DNA of 64,000 bases, from assembly GCA_021833625.1 (NCBI GenBank), contig JAKBEU010000001.1, forward strand, positions 248,001 through 312,000, read 5' to 3'. The notes below the pieces were generated by a model. The model was not told the origin of the DNA. It searched no databases and was given only the letters and a program-made list of their open reading frames with translations. The translations under genes and the position numbers were made by a program. Numbering within the stretch: position 1 is the stretch's first letter; each line of letters begins with the position of its first letter. The DNA comes from a bacterium. Its GTDB lineage: Bacteria; Patescibacteriota; Microgenomatia; UBA1406; GWC2-37-13. Shown here piece by piece: positions 30,293 to 61,215 of the stretch.

Positions 30293-31111
30293 ATGGTAAT
30301 TCAACTGACGCCACAGCAGGGGAGAGGAACATTTTTTTGGTCACTCCCAAAAACGAATGACTATCAGACGATTTCTTCAGTTATTATCCCTCATGGTGCA
30401 AATACATTAAACGACGTCTATGATAACACCCTTATTTCTTATATACCAAACAGTACGGAATCGATTTCATTCTCATACACTGCAAAACAAGTGTCAAAAA
30501 CGATTTCTCCCTTATTCACTCTTCAGGACTATAACAAGATAACGGTGCCTTCCATTTTTTTTAATGAAGACAGTCTCGTAAATGGGAAGGATGAAAAGAT
30601 TATTGAGATGGCAAAACAAGTGGTAGGGAGTGAGCAGCGTATCAGCTCCATCATATCGTCGCTTTACAAGCATACTATCTCCTTCCTTTCCTATGAAAAC
30701 CCTATTGACGGTCTGTATCCCTACAGCCAAGCACTTGCCAATAAGCAAACGGATTGCGGCGGATACAGCACATTCCTTTCGTCCTGCCTTCAGTCACTTG
30801 GCATCCCAACCCGGCTCGTGTTGGGATTCGTATTTACGCCGCGGTTTTATTTATCTCTCCCTTTTATAAAACGTTCACTTCGTCATTTTTATATGCATGC
30901 ATGGGCGGAAGCACTATTGCCGGACAGCACATGGTTTCCACTTGATCCATCGGTCGAATGGAGACGCAGTCACGGACTTTCCAAACGGCAGGGGGGATTT
31001 GGAACTTTTCCCGCAGACCGACTCGTAGTGTCGATGGGGCATGCGATAACACTACCGACAAAAGAAAAAACATATCATTTTGACATTATTCAAAAACCAC
31101 TCTATATATGA
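30293..31111 (+). CDS. Transglutaminase-like cysteine protease-fold protein
   Basis: A 272-residue protein. The catalytic triad of the transglutaminase-like superfamily is visible: Cys155 in KQTDCGGYSTFLSSCL, His202 in FYMHAWAEALLPDSTWFPLDPS, Asp218 in the same stretch. No signal peptide or TM, so cytoplasmic unless exported otherwise. The N-terminal 90 residues are beta-rich. Members cleave or crosslink peptides and amides, including wall peptides. Overlaps the next gene by 4 nt (ATGA), so functionally coupled to the DegT-like protein. TATAAT at 30280-30285 allows independent transcription. Confidence 0.85.
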   Translation: MVIQLTPQQGRGTFFWSLPKTNDYQTISSVIIPHGANTLNDVYDNTLISYIPNSTESISFSYTAKQVSKTISPLFTLQDYNKITVPSIFFNEDSLVNGKDEKIIEMAKQVVGSEQRISSIISSLYKHTISFLSYENPIDGLYPYSQALANKQTDCGGYSTFLSSCLQSLGIPTRLVLGFVFTPRFYLSLPFIKRSLRHFYMHAWAEALLPDSTWFPLDPSVEWRRSHGLSKRQGGFGTFPADRLVVSMGHAITLPTKEKTYHFDIIQKPLYI

Positions 31112-32199
31112 TTTCGCTCGACTTTGCACCAAACGAAAAAAAAGATGATGCATTTTACAGTCTCTCTCTTTTACTGCAACCACACCTCTGGAGAAGGGGG
31201 GAAGGAGAGAAAAGATTAAACGACGTCATGTCCCCGCTTTTTCCCGGTTTTGCCTTTTCCTATTTTTTCTCCGGACGGGCAGCGCTGTTCCATCTTCTCA
31301 CATCATTTCATCTCCCAAAAGATTCGGCGATTGCCATTACCGGTTTTACCTGCAGTGCAGTTGCCATTCCGGCAATTCGAGCAGAGTTACACCCCGTCTA
31401 TATTGATATTGAAAAAGAAACATTTGCAATGACTCTTGCAGACGTGCAAAAAAAATGGAATAATTCCATTCGGGTCCTCATTCTTCAACATACATTCGGT
31501 CTTGTCCCCAGGGACAGAGATAAGATTCTTGCGTTTGCGAAGGAGAGACACATTATTGTTATCGAAGACCTTGCGCATGGTATCAGTCCACATCTTCACT
31601 ACGATTCTTACCTCTTACTGTCATTTGGAAGATCAAAATGGATTTCATCTGTTTTTGGTGCCGCAATTGGACACCCCAAAGGAAAGTCGCTCCCCAGAGC
31701 AACGAGAGTGGTTCCTGCATCTCTTCTTATAAGGGCTTTGTTATTTAAGCCGCTTAGCGTATTCATTCAAGCGACGTACGACATATATATCGGAAAGATA
31801 AAACTGTGGTTTTGTCGGAAGACACAACTTATTGTTCCAGAACTTTCCCAGGAAGAAAAAAAGGGCAAATGGTCAAATGAGTATGATTATGATTTCCCTA
31901 ACGCACTTGCGCTCCTTCTTCTTCATCAGTTGAAAAAAAGAATGGAAAAGAAACAATTCAAAAACAGATCCCCCCGTCTTATTAATAACAGAGATGAGGT
32001 TCTTGCGCGTCTTGCAAAAAAGCATATCTTTCTGGGAAGATGGTATACCCAACCGGTGGCACCGCTTGGTCTCCCGCTTGACAGTGTCCGTTACCAAAAA
32101 GGCTCGTGCCCTATAGCAGAGGACGTATGTGCCCACATCATCAACCTTCCTTTAGGCCCGGATATGCCTCATATACAGAAAATCATTGATGAACTATAA
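31108..32199 (+). CDS. DegT/DnrJ/EryC1-like PLP-dependent protein
   Basis: A 363-residue fold-type I PLP protein. Landmarks of the DegT family: SGRAALFHLL, FTCSAVAIPAI, VYIDIEKETFAMT, IEDLAHGISP with PLP-ring Asp154, and LLSFGRSKWISS with a Lys177 in the Schiff-base position. The C-terminal half is less conserved. DegT enzymes usually transaminate nucleotide-linked sugars. Here the neighbours (transglutaminase-like, FemX-like) suggest an envelope amino-sugar or peptide modification. Confidence 0.85.
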   Translation: MISLDFAPNEKKDDAFYSLSLLLQPHLWRRGEGEKRLNDVMSPLFPGFAFSYFFSGRAALFHLLTSFHLPKDSAIAITGFTCSAVAIPAIRAELHPVYIDIEKETFAMTLADVQKKWNNSIRVLILQHTFGLVPRDRDKILAFAKERHIIVIEDLAHGISPHLHYDSYLLLSFGRSKWISSVFGAAIGHPKGKSLPRATRVVPASLLIRALLFKPLSVFIQATYDIYIGKIKLWFCRKTQLIVPELSQEEKKGKWSNEYDYDFPNALALLLLHQLKKRMEKKQFKNRSPRLINNRDEVLARLAKKHIFLGRWYTQPVAPLGLPLDSVRYQKGSCPIAEDVCAHIINLPLGPDMPHIQKIIDEL

Positions 32200-32222
32200 T
32201 TTACACATTTAAGACATATAGT

Positions 32223-33290
32223 ATGACGAATTCTAAAATAACGGAAATTAATGAAGAGGGGCGATGGACCCTTTCTTTTAATAGCCTCAAATCTCCCTCT
32301 TTTTTGCAATCATGGGAATGGGGAGAGCTCCAGAAGCGGCTTGGATATTCCGTTATACGCGTTAGCATTCAGCGCGGTGGTGTGACAGGAATAGCACAGC
32401 TTATTATCATCAAAGGCAGGCGTGGCAACTTCTTATTCGTGCCCCATGGCCCCATGCTTAATGCGGAGTCAACGGATGACATCATTCAAATGACCGGAGA
32501 TCTTGTTTCTTATGCCGAAAGGGTGGCAAAAAAAGAAAAGCTCAACTTCATTCGCATTGCCCCTATCCTCGAAAACACGCAGGAAAATAGACATATTTTT
32601 ACTCAGCTTGGCTTCACAGCAGCACCCCTCTACATGCACGCTGAACGTGTTTGGCAGATGGCTATTTCGGCTGATGAAGAACAGTTATTGAAACAGATGC
32701 GCAAGACAACGCGTTACAGTATAAAACACGCTGAAAAACTGGGCGTCCGTGTAGAAATATATCCTTCCGCTCCAGCAGAAGCTCCGTTATTATCGAAAAA
32801 GACTGAATCACAATGCATCGACGAATTCTGGAATATTTATCAAGTAACCGCAAAGCGTGAGGGATTTGTTCCTTTTTCCAAGTCATATTTAATTAATGAG
32901 TTTGAATCCTTCAACAAAACAGGTTCCGCATTTTTTGTTTTTGCGTATGAGGAGGGGAACCGTCTTACCGCCGCCGCTTTAATTGTTTGTACGAAATCTA
33001 CCGCGTTTTATCATCAAGGAGCCACTCTTCATAGTAAAGTCCCCTCTGCATACCTTCTTCAGTGGAGATCGATTCAGGAAGCAAAAAAACGGGGCTGCAA
33101 GCTTTACAACTTCTGGGGAACGTATAAAAAAGGAAGAACGCCGGAAAGTTGGAAGGGACTATCGCTTTTCAAGGAAGGCTTTGGAGGATTTGCAACCGAC
33201 TACGTTGAGACCCAAGACAAACCGCTGAACTTCAAATACTACTGGACGGTCCTTTATGAAACAGCGCTTAAAATGAAGCGCTTTTTATGA
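32223..33290 (+). CDS. FemA/FemB/FemX-family aminoacyltransferase
   Basis: A 355-residue protein of the FemABX type (two GNAT folds). Signatures: FLQSWEWGELQKRLGY at the N-terminus, NFLFVPHGPML, LNFIRIAPIL, MRKTTRYSIKHAEKLGV, EGFVPFSKSYLINEF, and GCKLYNFWGTYKKGRTPESWKGLSLFKEGFGG. The family adds amino acids from aminoacyl-tRNA to lipid II stem peptides (interpeptide bridges). Ends the envelope run; its stop overlaps the convergent phosphatase by 6 nt. Confidence 0.92.
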   Translation: MTNSKITEINEEGRWTLSFNSLKSPSFLQSWEWGELQKRLGYSVIRVSIQRGGVTGIAQLIIIKGRRGNFLFVPHGPMLNAESTDDIIQMTGDLVSYAERVAKKEKLNFIRIAPILENTQENRHIFTQLGFTAAPLYMHAERVWQMAISADEEQLLKQMRKTTRYSIKHAEKLGVRVEIYPSAPAEAPLLSKKTESQCIDEFWNIYQVTAKREGFVPFSKSYLINEFESFNKTGSAFFVFAYEEGNRLTAAALIVCTKSTAFYHQGATLHSKVPSAYLLQWRSIQEAKKRGCKLYNFWGTYKKGRTPESWKGLSLFKEGFGGFATDYVETQDKPLNFKYYWTVLYETALKMKRFL

Positions 33291-45605: not shown

Positions 45606-46667
45606 TTAGTCCTTCTTTTTTACCTTTTGTAAAACATGTTCCAGATTTTTCCCTTCCTCAACTATTACTTTCGGATTTCCTGCTTTTGGAATGAGGGACA
45701 TAACGACCTTAAAGAGTCCTCCGTTTTTCTCCTCCTTCACAAAAATTTTAGCTTTTTCCACATCCCTCTCCCCTCTTAACTTTTTCTTCATTCTCTCAAA
45801 AAAGTTCTTGACGATAATGGAACTTTTGAGGGAAAGATTTTGACTGGACGCTTCAAGCTTGTTGTTGTTTTTTTCAAAAACGAGCAATTTGAGAAGGTCT
45901 CGGGTCGTTATGATACTTATCGGCTTATTTTGATCGTCAACAATGACAATACTTCCTATCTTCTTCTCCATAATAAGATGCAGGGCGTCACGTGCGTAAT
46001 CGCCCAGGCTCAACGTCAGAACAAAAGATTTCATGAAGTTCTTTACCCGCTTTGACTGCAATGTTGTTTTGTCCTCAGCCGGTCCGCCTCTTTCTCTTTT
46101 TTTTGGAGAAATAAGAAATGAAACAAGATCGTAATAACTCAATATTCCTCTCAGTTTCCCCGCAGGATTTATCACGACAAGCTTTGATACTTTCGTATTC
46201 TTGAATACCTGAAGGGCATGACCTATCGTTTCGTCTTCCTGGATAACAACAAGGGGTTTTTTCTTGTCCTGGATAATATCCTTAATAAGGACCGTGAATA
46301 TGTCCGACGGCTCAAACACCGACAATAACTTTCTCGCCGTTACCATTCCCAAAAACTTTTCCTGATCGTCAAAAACCGGCAAATAATGAATCTTTGACTC
46401 AATCATCATCTGTGCAATCTTACCCGTCGAATGCTGTAACTTTACGTGAGGAGCGTGGAAGAGACAATGCTCCACTTTTGCATTTGAAGGATGAGACGTT
46501 TTGATGACCGAGTAATAAGGATTGATAAGTCCCAGATATTTTTTTTGATCATTGAAAACAAACGATGCATCATGCGAGCTTGTTAATTTGCTAAGTGCGG
46601 ATGTGAGCGGTTCGTCAGGCATGCTCGTGATTATTCCCTCGGTTTGCAGTACCTTTTGTGCTTTCAT
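45606..46667 (-). CDS. Protein with four CBS domains
   Basis: A 353-residue cytoplasmic protein made of two CBS pairs (about 5-125 and 135-265), recognisable as repeated units such as HYLPVFDDQEKFLGMVTARKLL, SKLVVINPAGKLRGILSYYDLV and GSIVIVDDQNKPISIITTRDLL, followed by a basic C-terminal region of about 85 residues. CBS modules bind adenine nucleotides and act as energy or ionic sensors. No catalytic domain is attached. Start overlaps the pepA stop by 4 nt. Confidence 0.88.
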   Translation of the reverse strand: MKAQKVLQTEGIITSMPDEPLTSALSKLTSSHDASFVFNDQKKYLGLINPYYSVIKTSHPSNAKVEHCLFHAPHVKLQHSTGKIAQMMIESKIHYLPVFDDQEKFLGMVTARKLLSVFEPSDIFTVLIKDIIQDKKKPLVVIQEDETIGHALQVFKNTKVSKLVVINPAGKLRGILSYYDLVSFLISPKKRERGGPAEDKTTLQSKRVKNFMKSFVLTLSLGDYARDALHLIMEKKIGSIVIVDDQNKPISIITTRDLLKLLVFEKNNNKLEASSQNLSLKSSIIVKNFFERMKKKLRGERDVEKAKIFVKEEKNGGLFKVVMSLIPKAGNPKVIVEEGKNLEHVLQKVKKKD

Positions 46668-48175
46668 AGTGCAGAAAATTGTTCAAGAAAATTAATAATG
46701 CTTGCGACTCCCCATCCTGAAGCTCCTTTTGGAAGCATTCCCTTTTCGCTTTCCCTATATGCGGGACCTGCTATATCGATATGAATCCATTTCATTTTCT
46801 TTACAAACGCTTTCAGGAATAAACCGGCAGTTATCGCACCCCCATATCTTCCCCCTCCAATATTTTTCAAATCGGCGATGTCACTTTTCATCTGTTTTGC
46901 GTACCCTTCGTAAAGCGGTAATCTCCAATATTCATCTCCCGCCTCAGTTGCATATTTATTATATTCCTTTTCAAACTGTTCATCATTGGTAAACAATCCC
47001 GCTAAATCGTTGCCAAGTGCTACCATACATGCTCCGGTGAGTGTTGCCAGATCAAAACAGTAGTCTGCTTTTAATTGTTCTTCGGCATATACGAGTCCGT
47101 CCGCAAGGGTAAGGCGTCCTTCGGCGTCGGTATTAAGCACTTCAATGGTTTTCCCATTCATCGCTCTCACTATATCGCCCGGTTTTATTGCTTTACCGGA
47201 TGGCATATTTTCACATGCGGGCAGAATACCGAACACTTCACCGAAAGAAACGGTTGGGTTCTCCGTTGCAAGATAATGAAATACTCCCAACACCGCAGCC
47301 CCTCCGGACATATCTATTTTCATATCCATCATCGCTTCGCTTGGTTTTAAGGAAAGACCGCCGGAATCAAAGGTGATGGATTTTCCAATGAGAGCAATTT
47401 TTTTACTCCCCTTTCCTTCATATCTCAGTACGATAAACGCCGGTTGTCTCTCACTCCCCTCAGCCACTCCCAAAAATGCGCCCATTCCCAATTTTTCACA
47501 CATTTTTTTGTCCAACACTTCAACCTTTACCCGTCCTTTCGACAGTTTCCCTATTTCTTGCGCTTTTTCTACGAGCGTTCCGGGATGTAGGTGGCTTGCC
47601 GGAGTATTAATCATATTTCGGGCAAACAGCACGGCGACGGATTTTTTTTCTGCAGACTCCACTTTCTTTTTTGCCCGTATTGCATTGCTCTCTGAAACTA
47701 AGAGGTACGCATTCTTTACATGATTTATTTTTTTTCTTGATTCTTCCGCCTTAAAATCCTCAAACACATAGTCCCCGAGAATAATACCTTCCCCTATCGC
47801 TTCACTGTTATCTTCGACTGCTTTTATTCCGTCGTTTGCATGGATAACAACCGTATCTGTTTTTGAAGTATGCAGGCCACGAATTACTTCTCCCACCCTA
47901 TCCTTCAATACACGTGCGGTAAGTTTTGTACTTCTTCCCAAACCGATAAGCGTAATGCGTTGCAGCGTTCCCTCTTTTAAAAATTCAATGGAAAGCGTTT
48001 CCGTTTCCTTCCCCGTAAATTCTTCTTTCTTTATTTTTTCGTTCAGATACTGCTCATTTTCCGTCTTCAATTGACCGGATATTTTTTTATCCGTAAATGA
48101 AAAATATAAGTGCATTATTTGTGACTTTGTCCCGCTTGTTATGAAGGAGGAGGAAACGTGTATTTTTGGAGTCAT
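46664..48175 (-). CDS. pepA: Leucyl aminopeptidase (M17)
   Basis: A 503-residue M17 peptidase. C-terminal catalytic domain with metal ligands in IGKSITFDSGGLSLKPSEAMMDMKIDMSGGAAVLG and the signature NTDAEGRLTLADGLVYAEE; the N-terminal macro-like domain is about 160 residues. Hydrolyses N-terminal residues in the cytoplasm; some members also bind DNA. Promoter TTGACT-N17-TAGTAT (48213-48185, minus strand). Confidence 0.95.
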   Translation of the reverse strand: MTPKIHVSSSFITSGTKSQIMHLYFSFTDKKISGQLKTENEQYLNEKIKKEEFTGKETETLSIEFLKEGTLQRITLIGLGRSTKLTARVLKDRVGEVIRGLHTSKTDTVVIHANDGIKAVEDNSEAIGEGIILGDYVFEDFKAEESRKKINHVKNAYLLVSESNAIRAKKKVESAEKKSVAVLFARNMINTPASHLHPGTLVEKAQEIGKLSKGRVKVEVLDKKMCEKLGMGAFLGVAEGSERQPAFIVLRYEGKGSKKIALIGKSITFDSGGLSLKPSEAMMDMKIDMSGGAAVLGVFHYLATENPTVSFGEVFGILPACENMPSGKAIKPGDIVRAMNGKTIEVLNTDAEGRLTLADGLVYAEEQLKADYCFDLATLTGACMVALGNDLAGLFTNDEQFEKEYNKYATEAGDEYWRLPLYEGYAKQMKSDIADLKNIGGGRYGGAITAGLFLKAFVKKMKWIHIDIAGPAYRESEKGMLPKGASGWGVASIINFLEQFSAL

Positions 48176-48229: not shown

Positions 48230-48257
48230 TTGACAAATGATTAAAATTATTCATAAT
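48230..48257 (+). promoter_or_regulatory. Promoter of the four-gene ligase cluster
   Basis: TTGACA (48230-48235), 16-bp spacer, CATAAT (48252-48257); the ATG at 48275 follows a leader of about 11 nt with no Shine-Dalgarno. Confidence 0.6.
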
Positions 48258-48274
48258 GTACGGTATATAAAAAA

Positions 48275-49720
48275 ATGAAAGAAGATAAACAGAACCTTGA
48301 GGAAGAGGAACCTCCAAGTGCTTCAGTAAAAAAAGTTGTTTTAAAGAAAAAACATAATCATAACGAACTTGTCGTCTATATTTATAACGTAGTCGAAGAT
48401 GAATGGTCATTTATCTCCGCAATTACTGGTGAAGAAAACAGAAAAGAAGAAATTGAAAGTTGTAATAATTCCGCGGAATGTTATTTGTTTGCAAACGCCG
48501 ACGAAAATGAGTTTACCTATATTTCGCCAAAGCCCATTTCTCCTGCTTTCAAAAAATATTTTCAGGATCTGGTCGGTATAACAAAAATCGACATTCTTGT
48601 CCCGAAAAAAGTATCTGGACTTATTTCCAAAGATTTTTTCAATGATAAGGAATTATTCAAACGGTTCTTAAAAAAAGCAAGAAAATATAAAAAGGTAACC
48701 CTTGTCAGCTACGCCTCTTCCCCCCAATTTCTTGATTTGAAACAAAAACTTATCGACCGGAAAGTGAATGTCGTTACCCCGGAAGCTCCTGAAGAAGACT
48801 GCGCATGGACCGTCAACTTTTACGGAAGCAAGTCCGGAATACGCCAGCTTGCCCAACAAAGTACCGCGCTTGAGCCTGACTTTATTATGCCGGAGGGGGT
48901 TATTTGTGTCGGAAAACTGGATGCGGCAAAAATAGCGGCAAACAGATTTATCAACGACAATGGAGTCGTCATAAAAACAAATAAAGGCAGCAGCGGGAAC
49001 GGAGTATTGATTTTCCGCAGCGGCGATTTGCCAAAAGATTACAAGCAATGCGAAAAGACTATATATACAATACTTAATCAAAACGAATACTGGGACAGAT
49101 ACCCCATTATCATTGAAGACCTCATAAACGTGAGCGTCAATAACGGAACCAGTTTTCCCAACATTGAATTCAAGATAAATAAAAACGGCAAAATAGACAT
49201 GCTCTATTACTGTCTTATGATGGTCACGAAAGAAGGCGTGTTCTACGGTATTGACATGCATGAGGACGTCCTTAATGAGCGCCTTGCCGCACGCATCATC
49301 GATACCGGTTACTATATAGCGGAACGGTATGCCGCCGCCGGATACAGAGGGCATTTTGACATTGATATGATCGCAACAAAATATAACCAAGTGTTTGTAA
49401 ACGAATCAAATACCCGTAATACGGGAGGGACGGATGTTTTCAAGGTGGCGCTTGAACTTATCGGAAAAGATTTTTTCTCCGATTCTTATGTCTTAAGTCG
49501 AAGCAAGTATACAATAGAGGGAATGAAACATCCCACATTCACTAATGTCGTGAAAAAACTGAAGCCGCTTCTTTTTAATAAAAAGACGAAAGAAGGAGTT
49601 ATGATTACCTCGGAAAACATCATTAAACAAAAACAGCTTATTTATAATATTTTTGGTAATACGAAAAAGAGAGCATATCAAATCGAAGAGGAAATGAAAC
49701 AACTCCTCTTAACTCAATAA
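48275..49720 (+). CDS. ATP-grasp carboxylate-amine ligase (PGM1-like peptide ligase suspected)
   Basis: A 481-residue protein. After an acidic/basic low-complexity N-terminus, residues 50-210 resemble a pre-ATP-grasp domain (EFTYISPKPISPAFKKYFQDLVGI). The ATP-grasp fold follows: NGVVIKTNKGSSGNGVLIF (nucleotide Lys and Gly-rich loop), YPIIIEDLINV, and the metal site GYRGHFDIDMIATKYNQVFVNESNTRNTGG (Asp, Glu and Asn ligands). Such enzymes activate a carboxylate as acyl phosphate and join it to an amine, for example in peptide assembly. Leads the cluster 48.3-53.2 kb; next gene 15 nt downstream. Substrates unknown. Confidence 0.75.
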   Translation: MKEDKQNLEEEEPPSASVKKVVLKKKHNHNELVVYIYNVVEDEWSFISAITGEENRKEEIESCNNSAECYLFANADENEFTYISPKPISPAFKKYFQDLVGITKIDILVPKKVSGLISKDFFNDKELFKRFLKKARKYKKVTLVSYASSPQFLDLKQKLIDRKVNVVTPEAPEEDCAWTVNFYGSKSGIRQLAQQSTALEPDFIMPEGVICVGKLDAAKIAANRFINDNGVVIKTNKGSSGNGVLIFRSGDLPKDYKQCEKTIYTILNQNEYWDRYPIIIEDLINVSVNNGTSFPNIEFKINKNGKIDMLYYCLMMVTKEGVFYGIDMHEDVLNERLAARIIDTGYYIAERYAAAGYRGHFDIDMIATKYNQVFVNESNTRNTGGTDVFKVALELIGKDFFSDSYVLSRSKYTIEGMKHPTFTNVVKKLKPLLFNKKTKEGVMITSENIIKQKQLIYNIFGNTKKRAYQIEEEMKQLLLTQ

Positions 49721-49735
49721 TCCTTTCACCGCCTT

Positions 49736-51148
49736 ATGGAACTATTGAACATTTCAACGCAAAATCAGTCGGATGGCATACGGGCAAGTATTACGTATGG
49801 AAAGAAAAAACAAACTTATTCCCTCTCCTACCCCGCATCTGTCTGGAAATCGTATCCTTTACACTTAAAAGAACTTATACGGGAAAATATCGCATACATC
49901 TTCACCGCACACTTGCCTTTTTTATACAAAAAACAACTGGAAATACGTTATGACACACCCCGTCCCCTTTCTTCTCTTTGGATAAATAATCTTTTTTTCC
50001 ACTTTCTTCCCGGATACAACCGCATGCATAATTTTGTTGATGATCATAAGTCGACCTCCATAATGAAATTGTTTTTTAATTCACACTATATTTTCACCCG
50101 TTCCAATAACACGCTTCTTCCTTATCCTGAAAAAAAAAGCGGAAAGAAAAAAGAGACGGTGATTATTCCTTTCAGTTTCGGAAAGGACAGCTTTTTGACG
50201 TACTGGGTAACAAAAAAATTAGGATTCAATCAAATACTTATCTGGTACCACGACCCGACAAACGGATTTGAAGGAAAACAAAAGGAGCTCCTCTTTAAAA
50301 AATTTTGCACAAAAACAAAAAATAAATATTACTTTGTGCGCAATGAGTTCGGGCTCCTCCGGGCGCAGGATGAAAAATGGTTCGGATGGGAATCAGCTCT
50401 TCTCTCTTGGGCCGTTATGGCGCTCCCTATTGCATATAAGGAAAATGCACATTACATCCTTTTCAGTAACGAAAAAAGTACGAATGCCCACATGCCGGGA
50501 GAAGAAGACATATCTTTTATCCCCGACTATGAACAGTCCTCAGGTGCCACTAAAGAGTTATCACTCCTCACACAGGCTCTTACAAACCACTCACTCAAAA
50601 CCTCTACTCTATTGCAGGGACTGCACGACCTTGGCATTATCGCAATATTGAAGGAAGGATTCTATGAGGATACCGTTCCGTATCTCATGTCCTGTTGGGA
50701 TTCGACTGCCCATTCCCGTTGGTGCCAAAATTGTACGAAGTGTGCGCGCATGTATGTATATCTCCGCGCTAACGGCATTGATCCGAAAGAAGCTGGCTTT
50801 ACCGAAAATATGTTTACGGAAAAAAAGAAAAAACTGTTTAATGTTTTCGGAGTAAATGCCACAGGGACCGGGTGGGATGCGATGGGACTCAATACCCATG
50901 AACAGGCATTGGCATTTTACCTGTGCGTAAAACGGGGATATACGGACCCGCTTGTAAAAGAATTTGCTGCCCAACCGCTTTTCTTATTTGTCGAAAAAAA
51001 TATCGACGCATTACTTGAAGAATATTTTTCGCTTCACACCGAAGCCTCAACCCCTTCCCGCTGGAAGCAAAAAGTTGATCGTATATATACAAGTTATTTA
51101 GAAAAAACAAAAAAAAACATATACTCACTATGTCAAAAAAAGAGCTGA
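49736..51148 (+). CDS. PP-loop (N-type ATP pyrophosphatase) protein, MurL-like possibility
   Basis: A 470-residue protein. The PP-loop FSFGKDS is at about 146-152, followed by a Rossmann-type HUP half (FNQILIWYHDP). A Cys cluster WCQNCTKCARMYVYL near residue 335 may bind zinc. PP-loop enzymes adenylate a carboxyl or carbonyl and release PPi. Size, architecture and proximity to a D-Ala-D-Ala-ligase-like gene raise the possibility of a MurL-type epimerase acting on a glutamyl wall precursor, but I could not confirm this by sequence. Overlaps the next gene by 19 nt. Confidence 0.65.
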   Translation: MELLNISTQNQSDGIRASITYGKKKQTYSLSYPASVWKSYPLHLKELIRENIAYIFTAHLPFLYKKQLEIRYDTPRPLSSLWINNLFFHFLPGYNRMHNFVDDHKSTSIMKLFFNSHYIFTRSNNTLLPYPEKKSGKKKETVIIPFSFGKDSFLTYWVTKKLGFNQILIWYHDPTNGFEGKQKELLFKKFCTKTKNKYYFVRNEFGLLRAQDEKWFGWESALLSWAVMALPIAYKENAHYILFSNEKSTNAHMPGEEDISFIPDYEQSSGATKELSLLTQALTNHSLKTSTLLQGLHDLGIIAILKEGFYEDTVPYLMSCWDSTAHSRWCQNCTKCARMYVYLRANGIDPKEAGFTENMFTEKKKKLFNVFGVNATGTGWDAMGLNTHEQALAFYLCVKRGYTDPLVKEFAAQPLFLFVEKNIDALLEEYFSLHTEASTPSRWKQKVDRIYTSYLEKTKKNIYSLCQKKS

Positions 51149-52173
51149 GAAAATATACCATCGCATTCCTTTACAATGTCCGGCATTCTTATCCTGATCC
51201 GGATGATCCGAGGTCCCAACTCGAGGCTGATTTTGATGACCCAGGAACAATAGAACATGTTATGCGGCATTTGAAAAACTGCGGATGCAAGGTGCTGCCG
51301 ATTGAAGCTAACGAATATGCATATGATGTGCTCTTAAAAAATAGGGACAAAATAGACCTGGCTTTCAATTTTTCGGAAGGAATGTATGGAGAGGATAGAT
51401 ATGCCCATATTCCCGCTATTTTGGAAATGCTCCGCATTCCCTACACGGGGTCTTCTCCTCTCACACAAGGACTTGTTTTGCACAAAGCACGAATGAAAGA
51501 CATGCTTAGAAGTCAGGGAGTCCCCACCCCCGCCTCCCAACTTTTTGTCACGGGAAAAGAAAAAAGAGAGCCGTCTCTTTTATTTCCTCTTATCGTAAAA
51601 CCGGTTTCCCAAGGATCGTCAGCCGGCATTACTCAAAAAAGTGTAGTAAAAAATGACAAAGAACTGCGCAAGCAGGTGCAAAAAATCCTTACATTATTCG
51701 GTCAGCCCGTACTTGTGGAGCCGTTTCTTACCGGAAAGGAATTTTCGGTTGCACTCCTTGGCAATCCCCCGAAGGCCCTTCCCATTATCGAGCCGGACCA
51801 TTCTCTTCTCCCTCAGGACTATCTTCCCTTTGACTCCCTTGAAGTGAAATGGGTCTTTGAAGAAGCTTCGGATTTAAAATATCTTATGTGTCCGGCAAAA
51901 ATCAGCAAGAAAATTCAGAACAAAATAGAATCGATTGCGTTTGCCACATGGAACGCCCTTGCAATCCGTGACTGGTGCAGGATAGATATGAAAATGGATG
52001 CAAATGGCGCCATCTTTGTTTTGGATGTGAATTCTCCGGCCGGACTTATGCCGCCTGAAATTTCAACTACCTCTTATTTTCCCCTTGCCGCCCGTGCAAA
52101 ACATATTGAATATGAACAGCTATTATCAATGATTATTTCTATTGCTCTCAAACGCTATGGTATTAAAAAGTAG
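51130..52173 (+). CDS. D-alanine-D-alanine ligase-like ATP-grasp protein
   Basis: A 347-residue ATP-grasp ligase. Matches to Ddl: DLAFNFSEGMYGEDRYAHIPAILEMLRIPYTGSSPL, LVLHKARMKDMLRSQGVPTP, FPLIVKPVSQGSSAGI, VLVEPFLTGKEFSVALLG, and the metal/product loop WCRIDMKMDANGAIFVLDVNSPAG (Asp, Asp, Asn). The omega-loop region is diverged from standard Ddl, so the product may be a different dipeptide. Overlaps both neighbours in the cluster. Confidence 0.85.
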   Translation: MSKKELRKYTIAFLYNVRHSYPDPDDPRSQLEADFDDPGTIEHVMRHLKNCGCKVLPIEANEYAYDVLLKNRDKIDLAFNFSEGMYGEDRYAHIPAILEMLRIPYTGSSPLTQGLVLHKARMKDMLRSQGVPTPASQLFVTGKEKREPSLLFPLIVKPVSQGSSAGITQKSVVKNDKELRKQVQKILTLFGQPVLVEPFLTGKEFSVALLGNPPKALPIIEPDHSLLPQDYLPFDSLEVKWVFEEASDLKYLMCPAKISKKIQNKIESIAFATWNALAIRDWCRIDMKMDANGAIFVLDVNSPAGLMPPEISTTSYFPLAARAKHIEYEQLLSMIISIALKRYGIKK

Positions 52174-53236
52174 AGGCCAAACCGTTACTCTTCCTCATGG
52201 AGGATTACCGGAAGTTATATCTCCCCACTTGTTAACTCTTATTGAAAAAACCGGTGGGAAAAACGGTCCCATTGGAAAACAATTTGTCGCACAACCACAC
52301 CTTGAATGTAAATATTTTAATAAAATTTCCGCAGACCCTTTATCTGAAGATCACAACGAGGTCGCTCCCGGCCTTGTATATAAATACAGAGGAAAAATAG
52401 ACACAAAAGGGAAAGTGATGTTTTACGGGAGAGCCCTCTGGACCGTTACCCGTTTTTGCGGATCTTATTGCCGGTTTTGCACGCGTGGACGCGAGGTCGG
52501 AATGATGCCGAATTCAAAACAAGTATTGAAAACTCATTCAGCTCTTTCTTCACAGCCTTTTCTGAGTGACGCACAAATATGCGAAACGATTAGCTATCTC
52601 TCCCGCCACCCGGAAATCAATGAGGTCATCCTGTCAGGGGGAGATCCGCTTACCACCCAACAGGAATATCTCACAAGAATAATTGACGAGCTGGTAAAAC
52701 TCCAGTCAAAGGGTAATCTTCATGTGATTCGCATCGGGAGCCGTTTGCCGGTACATAATCCGGGTGCCGTAAAAGATTGGCACTATAGTCTTCTTGCCCG
52801 GATAAAAAATCCGTATCTTATGGTTCATATTAATCACCCTGCAGAGCTTACTCCCGAAACGCTAAGCGTACTTACCCGTTTCAGGAAAGAGTCGCTTGCC
52901 ACTCTCATGTCTCAAACCGTCTTTTTGAAGGGAGTGAACGACAATGAAAAGGTCCTACTTGAACTTTTTAATACAATGACAAGAGAAGGCATCAGACCCT
53001 ATTATCTCTTTCAGAACGATCCCGTCTATTGGGCACAACACCTCACCGTTCCCGTCAAACGGGGAATCGCACTATGGCAAAAAATTCGTCCGAAACTGTC
53101 CGGTGTTGCAGCAACCGCACGCTATGTAATTGATGTCCCCTTCGGATACGGCAAAATCCCCATTCCGGAAGGCGGAGCCTGGCAGTTTGATAAAGGCAAA
53201 TATCTTGATTTTAAAAAGAAGCCGTTTAGCTTATAA
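52157..53236 (+). CDS. KamA-family radical SAM aminomutase-like enzyme
   Basis: A 359-residue protein from ATG 52157. Radical SAM cluster motif RFCGSYCRFCTRGREVG (CxxxCxxC), VILSGGDPLTTQQEYL and VIRIGSRLPVHNP as in lysine 2,3-aminomutases. The PLP-Lys region, usually PGGGGK, is DVPFGYGKIPI: the Lys is kept but the glycines are changed. No long C-terminal oligomerisation tail. The family moves the alpha-amino group of lysine, glutamate or an EF-P-linked lysine to the beta carbon. Here it may supply a beta-amino acid to the adjacent ligases. Start codon overlaps the Ddl-like gene by 17 nt. Confidence 0.88.
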   Translation: MVLKSRGQTVTLPHGGLPEVISPHLLTLIEKTGGKNGPIGKQFVAQPHLECKYFNKISADPLSEDHNEVAPGLVYKYRGKIDTKGKVMFYGRALWTVTRFCGSYCRFCTRGREVGMMPNSKQVLKTHSALSSQPFLSDAQICETISYLSRHPEINEVILSGGDPLTTQQEYLTRIIDELVKLQSKGNLHVIRIGSRLPVHNPGAVKDWHYSLLARIKNPYLMVHINHPAELTPETLSVLTRFRKESLATLMSQTVFLKGVNDNEKVLLELFNTMTREGIRPYYLFQNDPVYWAQHLTVPVKRGIALWQKIRPKLSGVAATARYVIDVPFGYGKIPIPEGGAWQFDKGKYLDFKKKPFSL

Positions 53237-55831: not shown

Positions 55832-56950
55832 ATGAAGATATACTTTACTGCATCAACTTCAGTGAATGGCGAACTTTCCCCTTCATATAAGCAGATTATT
55901 ACTTACATAAAAAACCATCACGTTGCCCTCACCTCGGGAGAGCAGATTGTGAAAAAAGAAATGCTGGAAAAAGACAAACTGCTCCCTTCGAAAATAATTT
56001 TTGAACGTCAAAATAAACGGATTGAAGAATCGGACCTTATTATCGCCGAGACGTCCAAGCCCTCCCTTGGGGTGGGAGGAGAGATTGTATATGCTCTTTC
56101 TCTTGGAAAACCGGTGCTTGCGCTTATCAATACCACTTTTGAAGACATTATCTCCCCCATGCTTGTCGGCAACCCTTCAGAAAGTCTCTATATCGAATAT
56201 TATGATCAGGATAACCTCCGGCATAAAATCAATGACTTTATTAAACATGTAGAACGCCTGAAAAGAAGGAAAGGAAAACTTATTGTGATAGACGGCGGAG
56301 ACGGTTCGGGAAAAACAACCCAAGCTACCCTTCTTGTTGACTATCTGAAAACACAAAAGATACCGGTAAAATACGTTGATTTCCCCCAATATCGTCGTAC
56401 ATTTCACGGAAAGACCGTCGGAAGATTTCTTACCGGTGAGTTTGGCGGAATTAATCAGGTTTCGCCCTACTTGGCATCCCTTGCCTATGCTCTCGACCGA
56501 GCATCAGCTAAACGGGAAATGGATGAGTTTTTGGCTTCAGGAGGCGTCATTATTGCCAATCGTTATGCGACTTCAAGCATGGCACATCAGGCGGCAAAGT
56601 TTACAAATGAGGCTGAAAGAGCCGAGTTTCTCAAGTGGATATACGAATTGGAATACAAGGTACACAAAATTCCAAAAGAAAACCTTGTTATTTATCTTCA
56701 TGTGCCATGGCAATTTGCCGCGGAATTGACCCGGAAAAGGGCCGTCCAAAAGGGACAAACACAAGATATTGCTGAAAAAAGTTATGAGCACCAGAAAGCA
56801 TCCGAAGCGATGTATTTACAACTGACAAAAAAATATAAACACTGGAAACAAATAGACTGTGTCCAAAATAATCAATTACTGAAGAAAGAATACATCCAAT
56901 CAAAAATAGTTGAACTTGTTGCGCCCTATCTTTCAGAAAGAGGAAAATAG
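55832..56950 (+). CDS. tmk: Fusion: nucleoside 2-deoxyribosyltransferase-like domain + thymidylate kinase
   Basis: A 372-residue fusion. Residues 1-120: NDT/DNPH1-like fold, with IYFTAS at the start, RIEESDLIIAETSKPSLGVGGEIVYALSLGKPVLAL, the last part matching the catalytic-Glu region of that family. Residues about 148-365: dTMP kinase, with P-loop VIDGGDGSGKTTQATLL, VDFPQYRR, DRASAK, IIANRYATSSMAHQ and HVPWQFAAELTRKRA. The N-domain could hydrolyse or exchange the base of (deoxy)nucleotides such as damaged dNMPs before kinase entry. Tmk symbol refers to the C-terminal half. Start ATG is 8 nt after TATAAT (55818-55823). Confidence 0.88.
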   Translation: MKIYFTASTSVNGELSPSYKQIITYIKNHHVALTSGEQIVKKEMLEKDKLLPSKIIFERQNKRIEESDLIIAETSKPSLGVGGEIVYALSLGKPVLALINTTFEDIISPMLVGNPSESLYIEYYDQDNLRHKINDFIKHVERLKRRKGKLIVIDGGDGSGKTTQATLLVDYLKTQKIPVKYVDFPQYRRTFHGKTVGRFLTGEFGGINQVSPYLASLAYALDRASAKREMDEFLASGGVIIANRYATSSMAHQAAKFTNEAERAEFLKWIYELEYKVHKIPKENLVIYLHVPWQFAAELTRKRAVQKGQTQDIAEKSYEHQKASEAMYLQLTKKYKHWKQIDCVQNNQLLKKEYIQSKIVELVAPYLSERGK

Positions 56951-57591: not shown

Positions 57592-57600
57592 ATTTGGCGA

Positions 57601-57629
57601 TTGAATTCTATCTTATAGTATTATATACT
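57601..57629 (+). promoter_or_regulatory. Promoter of the radical SAM gene
   Basis: TTGAAT (57601-57606), 17-bp spacer, TATACT (57624-57629); predicted start near 57636, ATG at 57642. Confidence 0.65.
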
Positions 57630-57641
57630 ATAACCTCAAAT

Positions 57642-58496
57642 ATGGCAACCGAACGACTTATCGCTCCCTCTGCTCTTCTTACACTCCCTAAACAGGAGAA
57701 ACAGAACTTCTTTTATCACTTTCACGAGGCTGAAATCAACTTCGGGTGCGGAAGTCGCCCTTGCAGAATGTGCTGCTATTCTGCACCCCGCTATACCTCT
57801 TCCCTCCCCTCAAAAACCATAAAGGAAATTCATTCGTTAAAACAGGAAATAGCGCCCCACATACCGTTTTGGCACTATCGGGCCGGTGATCCCTTTTACT
57901 GGAGGGATGAGAGTACAAATGAGAACTATGCCGATATTGCACGGGACGCATACGAAAAAGGGCTCGCACTTTCCATCCAGACACACGGGTGGCTTGCCGA
58001 TGAAGAAATTCCACAAAAGGCTGCATATCAGCTTGTTGAATGGGGAAAAAAACATGGGAAGAAAAATCTTGTCGGCGTTTCCATTGACCCTTACGGATTT
58101 ATTGACATTCCCCGCGACATTCAGGAGCTGAGTATTGCACTGACCGTACAGACTCTTGAGCCTATCCTGGAACACGTCACTGCATTTTATAATCCGCAGG
58201 GAACCGATGAAGGAGGAATGGAAAAGGTCTTGGAATTGGTTATGCGTACTATTCCCCCGCATCTTCAGAAAAACGTCAAATATGAAAGTATTTTTGGTGC
58301 GGGTCGGGCAAATACTCTTGATCAAAAACCTACTGAGCTTTTTATTCCCTCAACTATTGGCTATTCTTTGCGGCATAACGGCACAATTGTATTCACACAA
58401 GAGATGAATGGCAGGCAGTATGCCCAAGGCAACATCTTTACCTCCCTCAAAACGCCTCTCCCCCTTCCTATCCCAAGACCACCCGATTTTGATTGA
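57642..58496 (+). CDS. Radical SAM-like protein with atypical Cys motif
   Basis: A 284-residue protein. The putative cluster site is NFGCGSRPCRMCCYS, that is Cys36-x4-Cys41-x2-Cys44 (plus Cys45) rather than the classical Cx3Cx2C. Downstream FWHYRAGDPFYWRDES and LALSIQTHGWLADEE resemble the GDP and TxG beta-strand motifs of radical SAM barrels, and VGVSIDPYGF fits a later strand. No SPASM or other C-terminal cluster domain. The substrate is unknown; neighbours are nucleotide enzymes. Confidence 0.65.
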   Translation: MATERLIAPSALLTLPKQEKQNFFYHFHEAEINFGCGSRPCRMCCYSAPRYTSSLPSKTIKEIHSLKQEIAPHIPFWHYRAGDPFYWRDESTNENYADIARDAYEKGLALSIQTHGWLADEEIPQKAAYQLVEWGKKHGKKNLVGVSIDPYGFIDIPRDIQELSIALTVQTLEPILEHVTAFYNPQGTDEGGMEKVLELVMRTIPPHLQKNVKYESIFGAGRANTLDQKPTELFIPSTIGYSLRHNGTIVFTQEMNGRQYAQGNIFTSLKTPLPLPIPRPPDFD

Positions 58497-58509
58497 CCCT
58501 ATTATTCTT

Positions 58510-60000
58510 TCAAGTCGCACTTCTTGCATCGCTTATCGTCAGGAGAACCGTTTCCGGAGCAATGGAACTCTGTCTGCAAATAGCTACAAAATCATTATAT
58601 TCCTTTGTGCCGGGAGTAAGAAGTAAATCAACTCCATATTTTTTCGGAGTAGATTCTCCCGCTTTTACATCAACAGATTTCTTTTTGAAATCATACACAA
58701 TCCCAAGTACCTTAGCACCCCTTTTATTGTGAAAGTCTATTTTTCCTGATGTTCTGATGAAATGCAGGTCGTAAAGTATCTGCGGAAGCTCATTTTCAAA
58801 TTCTTGGGGAGAAACAATTTCCTGTCCGAGTAGTTGAATTGTCTTTGTTCCTTTCGATTTATATATATTCAGATCCGGAATTCCGTCGGCATTGGCATCG
58901 CTTATCATCGAAAGAACTTCTTTCCCTCCCACCTTTATCGGGTAAAGAGGAATGTCTCCTGAGATGGGTACGACAAAAGGCACCGTCATTCCCGGGTCAA
59001 ACAAAAACTTTATCCCTTCCTGTTCAAGCATTATCCCACTGTGGCCTTTTTTGTATGGAGGATTGTCGGACGCAAATACTACCACGCGCGGATTATCAAA
59101 ACCCATAGTCTGAAGGGCATCAGCAAGACGAAGAGTGTGAAGCGAACAATTCCCTCCCACCGTATCATACATTTCTTTTCTTCTTCTTATAATCTTCCGA
59201 TAAAATTCCATAACATCCCCCCTCCCTCCTTTTAAGTATTCTGCATAAAAAGAAAGCGTATTAAATGGTCTCTGTTCAATAACATCTTCCAATAGTTGGG
59301 CTGTTTGCATATCAAGCTTTCCAGCAACGTCTGCTAAGTGGAGTGTTTCTGCAGTAAGTCCGGATATGTGCGGTCTCACCGTCTGGAAATCCTGCTGATT
59401 CTCCTGAGTTGGCTTGAAGCGTGGAGTGTATATTCCTTTTTGAGTTGTGGCAAACTGTACAAATCCCGCAGTAAAGCCTTTTTTCGGATCAACCATTTCG
59501 GGAAGTGCAGTTACTTCTATCGGAAATGTTTCGGCGGGTTTTCCCAGCGGAATGTCAAGATAACTTAATACGGTAAATGCGCTCTCTCCTTTTTTTCTGC
59601 CGAAGGTTACTGAACCGACATAGCGGACGGATCCTACCCTATTTATTGCATCAAGCACTTCCCTTTTTCTTTCTTCCGTAAGTCCGTCCCTATTGACGGA
59701 TGTATATCCTCCATTTTCCTCTATCATGACAACCGAATCGGATACGACAATGGCGCTATCTCCTTCGCCTTCTTCCCCACTCATTTTTTTTCTTTGTTCG
59801 TCAAATTTTGCCCTCGACATTTCGGCCACATATCTAAAACCTTCAGTTTCAGGAATGTCGATTTCTTTTTTTATTCTTTCTTCATCGAATCGAACAGGAA
59901 CGGCAATCGCATCAAGACCGGGGGCTTGTTTTCTAAACTGCTCAAGTTTTCGTGCGTTTGATGTCGCAAGAGCCAAAGGAAGCCTTCCTTGTTCAACCAT
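58510..60000 (-). CDS. Fusion: Ham1/Maf-like NTP pyrophosphatase domain + NAT/transglutaminase-like domain
   Basis: A 496-residue protein. Residues 5-190 resemble ITPase/Ham1 (LALATSNARKLEQFRK at the start; acidic strand SAIVVSDSVVMIEENGGYTS). Residues about 255-350 carry a Cys-His-Asp triad in the style of arylamine N-acetyltransferases and transglutaminases: Cys285 (TVGGNCSLHTLRLADAL), His320 (KKGHSGIMLEQ), Asp335 (KFLFDPGM). A C-terminal region of about 150 residues is unrecognised. A housecleaning NTP hydrolase joined to an acyl or amide transfer domain is not an architecture I know. Convergent with the radical SAM gene (13-nt gap). Confidence 0.65.
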   Translation of the reverse strand: MVEQGRLPLALATSNARKLEQFRKQAPGLDAIAVPVRFDEERIKKEIDIPETEGFRYVAEMSRAKFDEQRKKMSGEEGEGDSAIVVSDSVVMIEENGGYTSVNRDGLTEERKREVLDAINRVGSVRYVGSVTFGRKKGESAFTVLSYLDIPLGKPAETFPIEVTALPEMVDPKKGFTAGFVQFATTQKGIYTPRFKPTQENQQDFQTVRPHISGLTAETLHLADVAGKLDMQTAQLLEDVIEQRPFNTLSFYAEYLKGGRGDVMEFYRKIIRRRKEMYDTVGGNCSLHTLRLADALQTMGFDNPRVVVFASDNPPYKKGHSGIMLEQEGIKFLFDPGMTVPFVVPISGDIPLYPIKVGGKEVLSMISDANADGIPDLNIYKSKGTKTIQLLGQEIVSPQEFENELPQILYDLHFIRTSGKIDFHNKRGAKVLGIVYDFKKKSVDVKAGESTPKKYGVDLLLTPGTKEYNDFVAICRQSSIAPETVLLTISDARSAT

Positions 60001-60045
60001 ATTGCCAAAAAGAAAAAATGTTTATATATTTATCTCCCCCAACGC

Positions 60046-61215
60046 TTATTCTTCCCTAAATGCAGCGCCATACCCATATTCTTGGGTCCACTTACGGCTT
60101 GCTCGGATAATTATTTTATTTGCATACGGGAAAAGCGGATTCATTTGTTCATCAAGTGCATATGGCAAATATCCTCCCCGGGCAAAATATACGTCGTTTG
60201 GTACATCGGGATCAATGGGCGCATTCATCGGAGGAAGCTCTCCCTTATGCATATGTTCGCCATGGGTGTCTTTTCTGGTATCGTTCCATGGGCAAAATGT
60301 GTCATCTCCCCGCTCTTTTCTTATATGCCGCATGATTTCGTCTTTTATTCCTTTTTCCGCATCTCCCATATCTCCCACTACTTGTATATTTCCATCTTCC
60401 CCCCTCAAAGCATTCACCGTCTTTTGCATTGCATCAGGAAGAGTTCTGACAATTTCATCTGGCATGGTAATGTAGTTTGCGTGTTTTTTGACCCCGTTTG
60501 TCCCCGTTACTCCTTCGGTAAGTCCATATGCCATATATCCTGCTGTTATGCGCAGAGGAATTTCATGTTTTTTTGCATATGCACGAAGAAGTAATATCCC
60601 TTGACCTGTTGCCGGCCCGTCAATCACCACCTCCACGCCCTTTTTGAGTGTCTGTTCGTTTCCTTGTTGTATCTGCAACTCCATATAGCTAAGTATCGAG
60701 TCGCCGGACGCAAGACAGTCGTCGTGAATACGTACCCCATATACGTGCCCATCCTGCTTTAAGGCGGGGCTTATGCCTTCTGCAAGAGCCTGCTGATACT
60801 GCGCGCGGACTCCATCGTCACCAAATCCCTGTCGTGCAAAACGCATAAGGGAAAGCGCATATTCACTTGTTGATCCGTGAAGAATGGAAAGACTTAAGCC
60901 CCTCTCATCGTGACTGAATGTTACAGCTTCTTTTGTTCCCGTTGTCGTACCGGTTAACCGCTCCGTCAGTCTTTTGTCCTCTCCCAGTTTATGCAAAAAC
61001 GTATCTGGTCGGATGATGCTTCCCGGAAATGAAGCACTCAATTCGGGAGGAAAGGTAACAAAATAATTCCAGCTTTCTTTTATGCCTTCTTCATCGGTAA
61101 GATGAACCTTGCCATGATCGTGCCACACCGTTCCCTCCAGTTTCGCCGGATTCCGGAGCAAACCTATGATTACCTCTCCCTGTCTCATCCCTTTTTGTGA
61201 CTTATTCTCAACCAT
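60046..61215 (-). CDS. Uncharacterised protein with a PRPP-binding-like loop
   Basis: A 389-residue soluble protein. VYGVRIHDDCLASGDSIL (about 158-174, Asp165-Asp166) resembles the phosphoribosyltransferase motif (four hydrophobics, two acids, then SG/TG-S/T), and the following KGVEVVIDGPATGQGILLLRAYAKKHEIPLRITAGYMAYGL fits the next strands of a type I PRTase-like fold. The C-terminal 100 residues contain Cys/His (TFCPWNDTRKDTHGEHMH). Upstream neighbour in the same direction ends at 61351, separated by two terminators; downstream is the Ham1 fusion (45 nt). Nucleotide salvage role is a guess. Confidence 0.55.
   Translation of the reverse strand: MVENKSQKGMRQGEVIIGLLRNPAKLEGTVWHDHGKVHLTDEEGIKESWNYFVTFPPELSASFPGSIIRPDTFLHKLGEDKRLTERLTGTTTGTKEAVTFSHDERGLSLSILHGSTSEYALSLMRFARQGFGDDGVRAQYQQALAEGISPALKQDGHVYGVRIHDDCLASGDSILSYMELQIQQGNEQTLKKGVEVVIDGPATGQGILLLRAYAKKHEIPLRITAGYMAYGLTEGVTGTNGVKKHANYITMPDEIVRTLPDAMQKTVNALRGEDGNIQVVGDMGDAEKGIKDEIMRHIRKERGDDTFCPWNDTRKDTHGEHMHKGELPPMNAPIDPDVPNDVYFARGGYLPYALDEQMNPLFPYANKIIIRASRKWTQEYGYGAAFREE

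Follow-up and report, generated by a model that had tools for sequence, protein, structure and literature searches.

Four tightly packed genes, p1 to p4, were analysed in a 64,000-nucleotide stretch of a Patescibacteria genome (the window, G000:C2:248001-312000). By sequence comparison, the p2 protein is a distant relative of MurL, an ATP-dependent peptide L-to-D epimerase, and its modelled fold is of the QueC/QatC type. p2 and a Ddl-like ligase, here p3, form a core that was found in Patescibacteria and DPANN archaea. Based on protein families, fold, motifs, the conserved neighbourhood and the gene content of the genome, we tentatively propose that p1 to p3 constitute a module for the non-ribosomal, racemase-independent synthesis of a small peptide containing one or more D residues, to which p4, an aminomutase, would supply beta-lysine; this reading falls just short of probable. 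The genome, G000, comprised 1.1 Mb on three contigs and was 99.56% complete. Where a gene is reported as absent from it, profiles were searched against the genome.

The relationship of p2 to MurL was visible at several levels of comparison. Searches against Pfam gave nothing useful, and up to an E-value of 1 only MurL and the PP-loop protein TtuA were matched in NCBIfam. The match to the MurL profile NF041275 scored 12.3 bits (E=0.044) and did not reach the curated cut-off of 700 bits, so p2 is placed only as a relative in the MurL superfamily; the MurL proteins of loci L023-L025 likewise scored below 700 bits. In an alignment of p2 homologues from 287 genomes of the phylum, the PP-loop and four cysteines were invariant. 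Three of the homologue matches were MurL proper, two with E-values of 1e-98 and 1e-114 against the MurL profile and one, a MurL-MurD fusion, with 8e-57. Profile-profile alignment of p2 with these MurL sequences in hhalign gave 99.5% (E=2e-23, 289 columns) and took in the PP-loop, the SNE motif and the SC..WCxxCxKCA motif. The PP-loop of p2 reads SFGKDS, a variant of SGGxDS, and its cysteine motif is C(x)9CxxCxxC, formed by C320, C330, C333 and C336. The form C(x)9-12CxxCxxC was present in 52 of 53 members of the p2 family and C(x)9-19CxxCxxC in MurL. A natural MurL-MurD fusion was located at L025:8038-10734, in a Patescibacterium from the class of G000. The neighbours of p2 are ATP-grasp genes and not MurD or MurD2, whereas the MurL genes of L024 and L025 do sit with MurD.

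The AlphaFold2 model of p2, calculated from a 53-sequence alignment, reached a predicted local distance difference test score (pLDDT) of 92.2. Its best solved structures were QatC 9y01_B with Z 14.9 over 315 residues, QueC 3bl5 with Z 14.7 and Cap9 9nto with Z 14.4, and QatC aligned over the N-terminal part as well. QueC is defined by SGGxDS and a zinc-binding C(x)8CxxCxxC (PMC13329287). p2 shares the PP-loop fold and the C(x)nCxxCxxC motif with QueC, Cap9 and QatC, but the QueC sequence profile gave no match to p2 up to E=1. For MurL, no known conserved domains had been described (PMC5808125); homology to p2 and the common motif suggest that MurL itself adopts the QueC fold. MurL uses ATP, yields AMP and converts L to D only (PMC8788868), and a PP-loop fold of the QueC type would explain the release of AMP. 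Placing MurL and a large sister family in this fold suggests that a PP-loop enzyme adenylates a carboxyl group, a chemistry that thereby becomes testable. p2 may likewise catalyse epimerisation, although the long branch to MurL and the other reactions of the QueC fold leave this unassured.

The gene p3 matched PF07478 with E=5e-29 and was the sole match to this family in G000. Its AlphaFold2 model (pLDDT 89.6) resembled DdlB of the D-alanine-D-alanine ligases (Ddl) over the whole length, with Z 33.9 over 296 residues. Its motifs differed. The GGxSxE donor-site motif was absent from p3 and its relatives, whereas canonical Ddls from this bacterial class carry it; the HGxxGEDG motif was replaced, and the K-Y of the omega-loop was K-W. 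In Ddl the first D-alanine is bound through its amino group by the glutamate of GGxSxE, Glu15 in E. coli DdlB, and the loss of this residue in p3 would fit a donor other than a free amino acid, for example a peptide. A role of p3 as a plain Ddl was rejected: the donor motif is gone, and a related genome, G156, lacks a stand-alone Ddl although it has Mur ligases.

Scanning 84,980 species yielded 54 p2 loci; after removal of duplicates and addition of the phylum loci, 55 non-redundant loci were compared. In 22 of the 55 the Ddl profile matched a gene on the strand of p2 within 150 bp, and in 27 within 1.5 kb. In L052 and L063 the nearest such match was a related ATP-grasp gene, and a fair count of Ddl-like partners is about 26 of 55. 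At an assumed 2% chance per locus the excess was far beyond chance, with the reservation that the loci are related and P is not to be taken literally. Conservation of a Ddl-like neighbour in about half of the loci excludes chance. Sequence distances of p2 and of the ligase were correlated (r=0.51, a value reached by none of 5000 permutations), also among single-domain pairs (r=0.36, 62 of 5000 permutations), in both cases with the shared ancestry of the genomes still contained in the values. Many p2 partners were ATP-grasp enzymes of the L-amino-acid-ligase (dipeptide-ligase) type fused to a Ddl domain. Some of these fusion clusters added a third ATP-grasp gene, a PLP (pyridoxal phosphate) enzyme resembling diaminopimelate decarboxylase and an acyltransferase. 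Some also added an enolase-superfamily protein, the best match of which was L-Ala-D/L-Glu epimerase for the one member tested. Peptide epimerisation hence appears as a recurring theme of these neighbourhoods.

The complete set p1-p2-p3-p4 was found only in this window. The order p2-p3-p4 was retained in L034 (Peregrinibacteria), and related p2/p3 sets with a KamA gene were present in L049 (Woesearchaeota) and L021/L079 (Magasanikbacteria), giving four lineages with KamA beside p2/p3-type genes, this genome's included. L049 bears a gene for a Hef-like helicase, which is typical of archaea, and L032 an archaeal PheRS; both contigs accordingly look archaeal. No EF-P match was obtained in the L049 archaeon. 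Co-occurrence across the 287 genomes was above expectation for p2 and p4, with four shared genomes versus 0.47 expected (P=5e-4), and for p1 and p4, with four versus 0.63 (P=2e-3). An earlier note on this DNA had suggested a check of co-occurrence: the p2 and Ddl-like pair was seen to recur, the full quartet was not. The titles and abstracts listed in searches of the open-access literature showed no report of this cluster type in Patescibacteria, and on MurL with ATP-grasp enzymes this literature yielded only a peptidoglycan minireview. Two further arrangements were seen. Small SET-domain genes lay near p2 or p1 genes in L022, L027, L069 and L118, with SET confirmed by Pfam in L118. Two divergent p2 genes placed tail to tail replaced the p2-Ddl pair in a clade centred on Gottesmanbacteria (L035, L038, L039, L040, L042, L043 and L018).

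The first gene, p1, was similar to the PGM1 chain of PDB 3wvq (E=1.2e-7) and matched the profiles of LdmS (NF047900, E=5.6e-6) and BesA (2e-4). A match to the pre-ATP-grasp domain PF18604 (E=7e-4) scored 20.5 bits, under the cut-off of 27.5. In sequence p1 resembles the PGM1/LdmS/BesA ATP-grasp peptide ligases, but it scored far under their equivalog cut-offs. It was present in 12 of the 287 genomes. Its close relatives were stand-alone genes away from p2 and p3, whereas more distant ones adjoined Ddl-like genes (L127-L129) or a p4 relative (L118, where two p1-like ligases accompany KamA). Other p2 clusters, searched for a p1-like gene, gave only weak general ATP-grasp matches. A regular partnership of p1 and p2 was rejected, as G000 was the only one of the 287 genomes in which both occurred. 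Two of the closest p1 relatives (L122:2245-3129 and L125:8633-9496; 52-53% identity), from different families, each lay beside an arginase-family gene (PF00491). The p1-like/p3-like pairs of L127-L129 adjoined peptidases (S58, M14-like and C39-like).

The fourth gene, p4, was related to lysine 2,3-aminomutase (LAM; 2a5h, E=3e-37). Its radical SAM cysteines, the equivalent of the PLP lysine K337 and the two aspartates binding the lysine side chain were kept, D293 and D330 of LAM corresponding to D288 and D326. It differed from EpmB and LAM by FGYG in place of GGGG and by an insertion of about 12 residues. The earlier note had described the retained PLP lysine and the FGYG change correctly and had taken the latter as a hint of a non-lysine substrate. 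The conserved lysine-binding aspartates leave this hint without support, and it was rejected; the GGGG change was found across the clade of p4, including the KamA adjoining EpmA in G156, a genome of the same taxonomic family. p4 was 54-55% identical to that EpmA-adjacent KamA. Both remained below the EpmB equivalog cut-off of 369.3 bits, p4 with 156.8 and the G156 protein with 171.4. In G000, EpmA (C1:150799-151800; TIGR00462, E=5e-81) adjoins EF-P with a PGKG tip (C1:151826-152380), away from the cluster, while p4 sits with p1 to p3 and not with epmA. An EpmA-like protein accompanied the short, EpmB-length KamA in ten of the genomes compared; none was found in G029 (88% complete), in G007 with its long KamA, or in G146 and G138, which lack KamA. 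Most likely, p4 is EpmB, and since EpmA and EF-P occur together elsewhere in G000 it probably serves EF-P too. Its recurrent placement close to p2/p3 or p1-like genes would be compatible with another role for beta-lysine besides.

Genes for cell wall synthesis were present in G000. MurC, MurD, MurE, MurF and MurT/GatD were identified, with profiles for GatD and the Mur ligases, and MurA, MurB, MraY and MurG were named from the sequence by eye. Profile searches of G000 gave no match for Ala_racemase_C (Alr) or glutamate racemase (MurI); D-amino acid aminotransferase was not searched for. p2 was the only match in the MurL-like search and no second Ddl was found besides p3. By the same reasoning from gene content, MurL was found in Xanthomonas (PMC5808125). 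The Ddl-like/MurL-like pair is a candidate source of D residues for some ultra-small bacteria in which Mur ligases are present but neither an alanine nor a glutamate racemase was detected. A link between p2 and missing Alr was not significant, with Alr in 3 of 12 p2-positive and 4 of 9 p2-negative genomes that have several Mur ligases, numbers that were counted by eye and are too small. Four DPANN genomes were searched, all with p2 and three also with p3, and gave no Mur ligase match. This weakens the link to the wall, and the pair in these archaea points to a further peptide.

In the proposed pathway, p1 and p3 would each activate a carboxylate as an acyl phosphate and then join it to an amine. 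p2 would adenylate the C-terminal carboxylate of the peptide delivered by its partner ligase. The alpha-proton would be lost and regained, and hydrolysis would leave a C-terminal D residue together with AMP and pyrophosphate. The resulting short peptide would contain one or more D residues, and no racemase acting on free amino acids would take part. p4 would form free beta-lysine, chiefly for EF-P via EpmA; a further use as a building block is possible. We infer epimerisation by p2, the order of steps, all substrates and the use of beta-lysine in the peptide. The ligase and epimerase pair would mirror MurD2/MurL, with the Ddl-like ligase standing in for MurD2. As in that system, the gene of an ATP-dependent ligase lies beside a MurL-superfamily gene, and p2 carries the PP-loop, SNE and SC..WCxxCxKCA motifs of MurL; the ligase here is Ddl-like and not MurD-like, a long branch sets p2 apart as a clade of its own, and DPANN genomes carry p2 without Mur ligase matches. 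The earlier note had proposed that a D- or beta-amino acid could be made and joined into a peptide or wall precursor. The conserved peptide-assembly neighbourhood agrees with the joining and a D theme is likely, but p2, and not a racemase, would be the source of the D residue; the wall part is suggested by the gene content of G000 and weakened by the DPANN genomes. A wider version, in which the Ddl-like ligase and MurL-type C-terminal epimerase form a racemase-independent D-peptide route widespread in Patescibacteria and shared with DPANN, feeding the wall in racemase-less Patescibacteria and making an undescribed peptide elsewhere, is quite unlikely to hold.

Several observations weigh against the proposed pathway. 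The tree places MurL and the p2 family apart with long branches between them, and the QueC fold also performs amidation, nitrile formation and protein conjugation. The p1 gene is not a regular partner of p2, as stated above. Of 14 control genomes, only 8 were matched by the Alr profile, which failed on one or more bacteria expected to have Alr, and Alr was also missing in several p2-negative genomes. G156 has Mur ligases and neither a stand-alone Ddl nor Alr nor p2, and the lack of Ddl and Alr does not by itself require p2 and p3. The chief rival for p2 is QueC-like amide chemistry, in which p2, as a carboxylate-amine conjugating enzyme, would adenylate a carboxylate and equip a peptide or protein with an amide or nitrile. 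It would then provide a third ligation and no epimerisation. QatC, QueC and Cap9 are the best structure matches of the model and the cysteine motif is of the QueC type (PMC13329287). The sequence family match, however, is MurL and not QueC, and MurL has the same cysteine motif, so the fold does not discriminate; p2 is moreover surrounded by peptide ligases and not by queuosine or defence genes. We regard this chemistry as rather improbable for p2. A defence system, considered for the resemblance to QatC and Cap9, was rejected: PADLOC assigned none of the four proteins to a defence family, and peptide ligases make up the neighbourhood.

A provision for the cell wall by p2 and p3 would accord with MurA-F, MurT/GatD, MraY and MurG in G000 without Alr or MurI matches, with p3 and p2 as the only Ddl and MurL homologues found there, and with the Xanthomonas precedent (PMC5808125). 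It was judged unlikely in view of the four DPANN genomes, the Mur ligases of G156 without Ddl or p2, the missing donor motif of p3 and the position of p2 away from MurD, unlike the MurL genes of L024 and L025. Another explanation dispenses with a joint pathway: p4 would be EpmB for EF-P, p3 a housekeeping Ddl, and p1 and p2 unrelated genes that came into one transcription unit in the course of genome reduction. The single occurrence of the full set, EpmA and EF-P together elsewhere in G000, and the EpmA-like protein in the ten short-KamA genomes and not in the two KamA-less controls fit this account. It is nevertheless improbable, as p2 and a Ddl-like gene recur widely and p2, p3 and KamA occur together in L034, L049 and L021, of which the L049 archaeon showed no EF-P match. 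The earlier note had named rare adjacency or separate housekeeping roles as arguments against its cluster, and these apply by half: p4 is probably housekeeping and close p1 relatives lie apart, but adjacency of p2 and p3 is frequent, and in three other lineages p4 accompanies p2/p3-type genes. Incorporation of the beta-lysine of p4 as a building block, giving a beta-lysine-containing D-peptide, is possible though doubtful. KamA beside p2/p3-type genes in four lineages, including the Woesearchaeon without an EF-P match, KamA with two p1-like ligases in L118 and the co-occurrence of p4 with p2 and p1 argue for it; the EpmB-like clade of p4, EpmA and EF-P in G000 and the lack of KamA in most p2 loci argue against it.

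The layout of the locus is given in Table 1. Four packed reading frames with a 15-nt gap between p1 and p2, a 19-nt overlap of p2 and p3 and a 17-nt overlap of p3 and p4, all on the forward strand, had been described before and were confirmed, as were the families named for them (two ATP-grasp ligases, a PP-loop protein and KamA). Third-position GC was even over p1 to p4 (0.41-0.43). A single promoter had also been proposed. A strong sigma-70-like site lies immediately 5' of p1, but the region holds 18 such sites versus 12.2 expected, and the promoter call is consensus evidence only.

Table 1. Features of the p1 to p4 locus, in window positions.
Feature	Position	Strand	Basis
Candidate sigma-70-like promoter, TTGACA-16-CATAAT	48230..48257	+	11/12 consensus matches; consensus only
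p1, PGM1/LdmS/BesA-class ATP-grasp peptide ligase with weak pre-ATP-grasp domain	48275..49720	+	PDB 3wvq, NF047900, PF18604
p2, PP-loop protein of the MurL superfamily with QueC fold, putative peptide epimerase that would adenylate a carboxyl group with ATP	49736..51148	+	hhalign, AlphaFold2, motifs
p3, Ddl-fold ATP-grasp ligase without GGxSxE donor-site motif	51130..52173	+	PF07478, model, motif comparison
p4, KamA-family radical SAM lysine 2,3-aminomutase, EpmB-like	52157..53236	+	2a5h, conserved residues, EpmA-adjacent relative

Further genes of the window were recorded. A cytosol aminopeptidase (M17) at 46667-48175 on the reverse strand lies directly upstream of p1 and is divergent from it. 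At 57594-61215, three proteins of 300, 496 and 389 aa had no Pfam match at 1e-5. A DegT-family aminotransferase adjoins a FemAB-family gene at 31108-33290 (+), possibly for wall cross-bridge formation. A nucleoside 2-deoxyribosyltransferase-like domain was fused to a thymidylate kinase at 55832-56950 (+).

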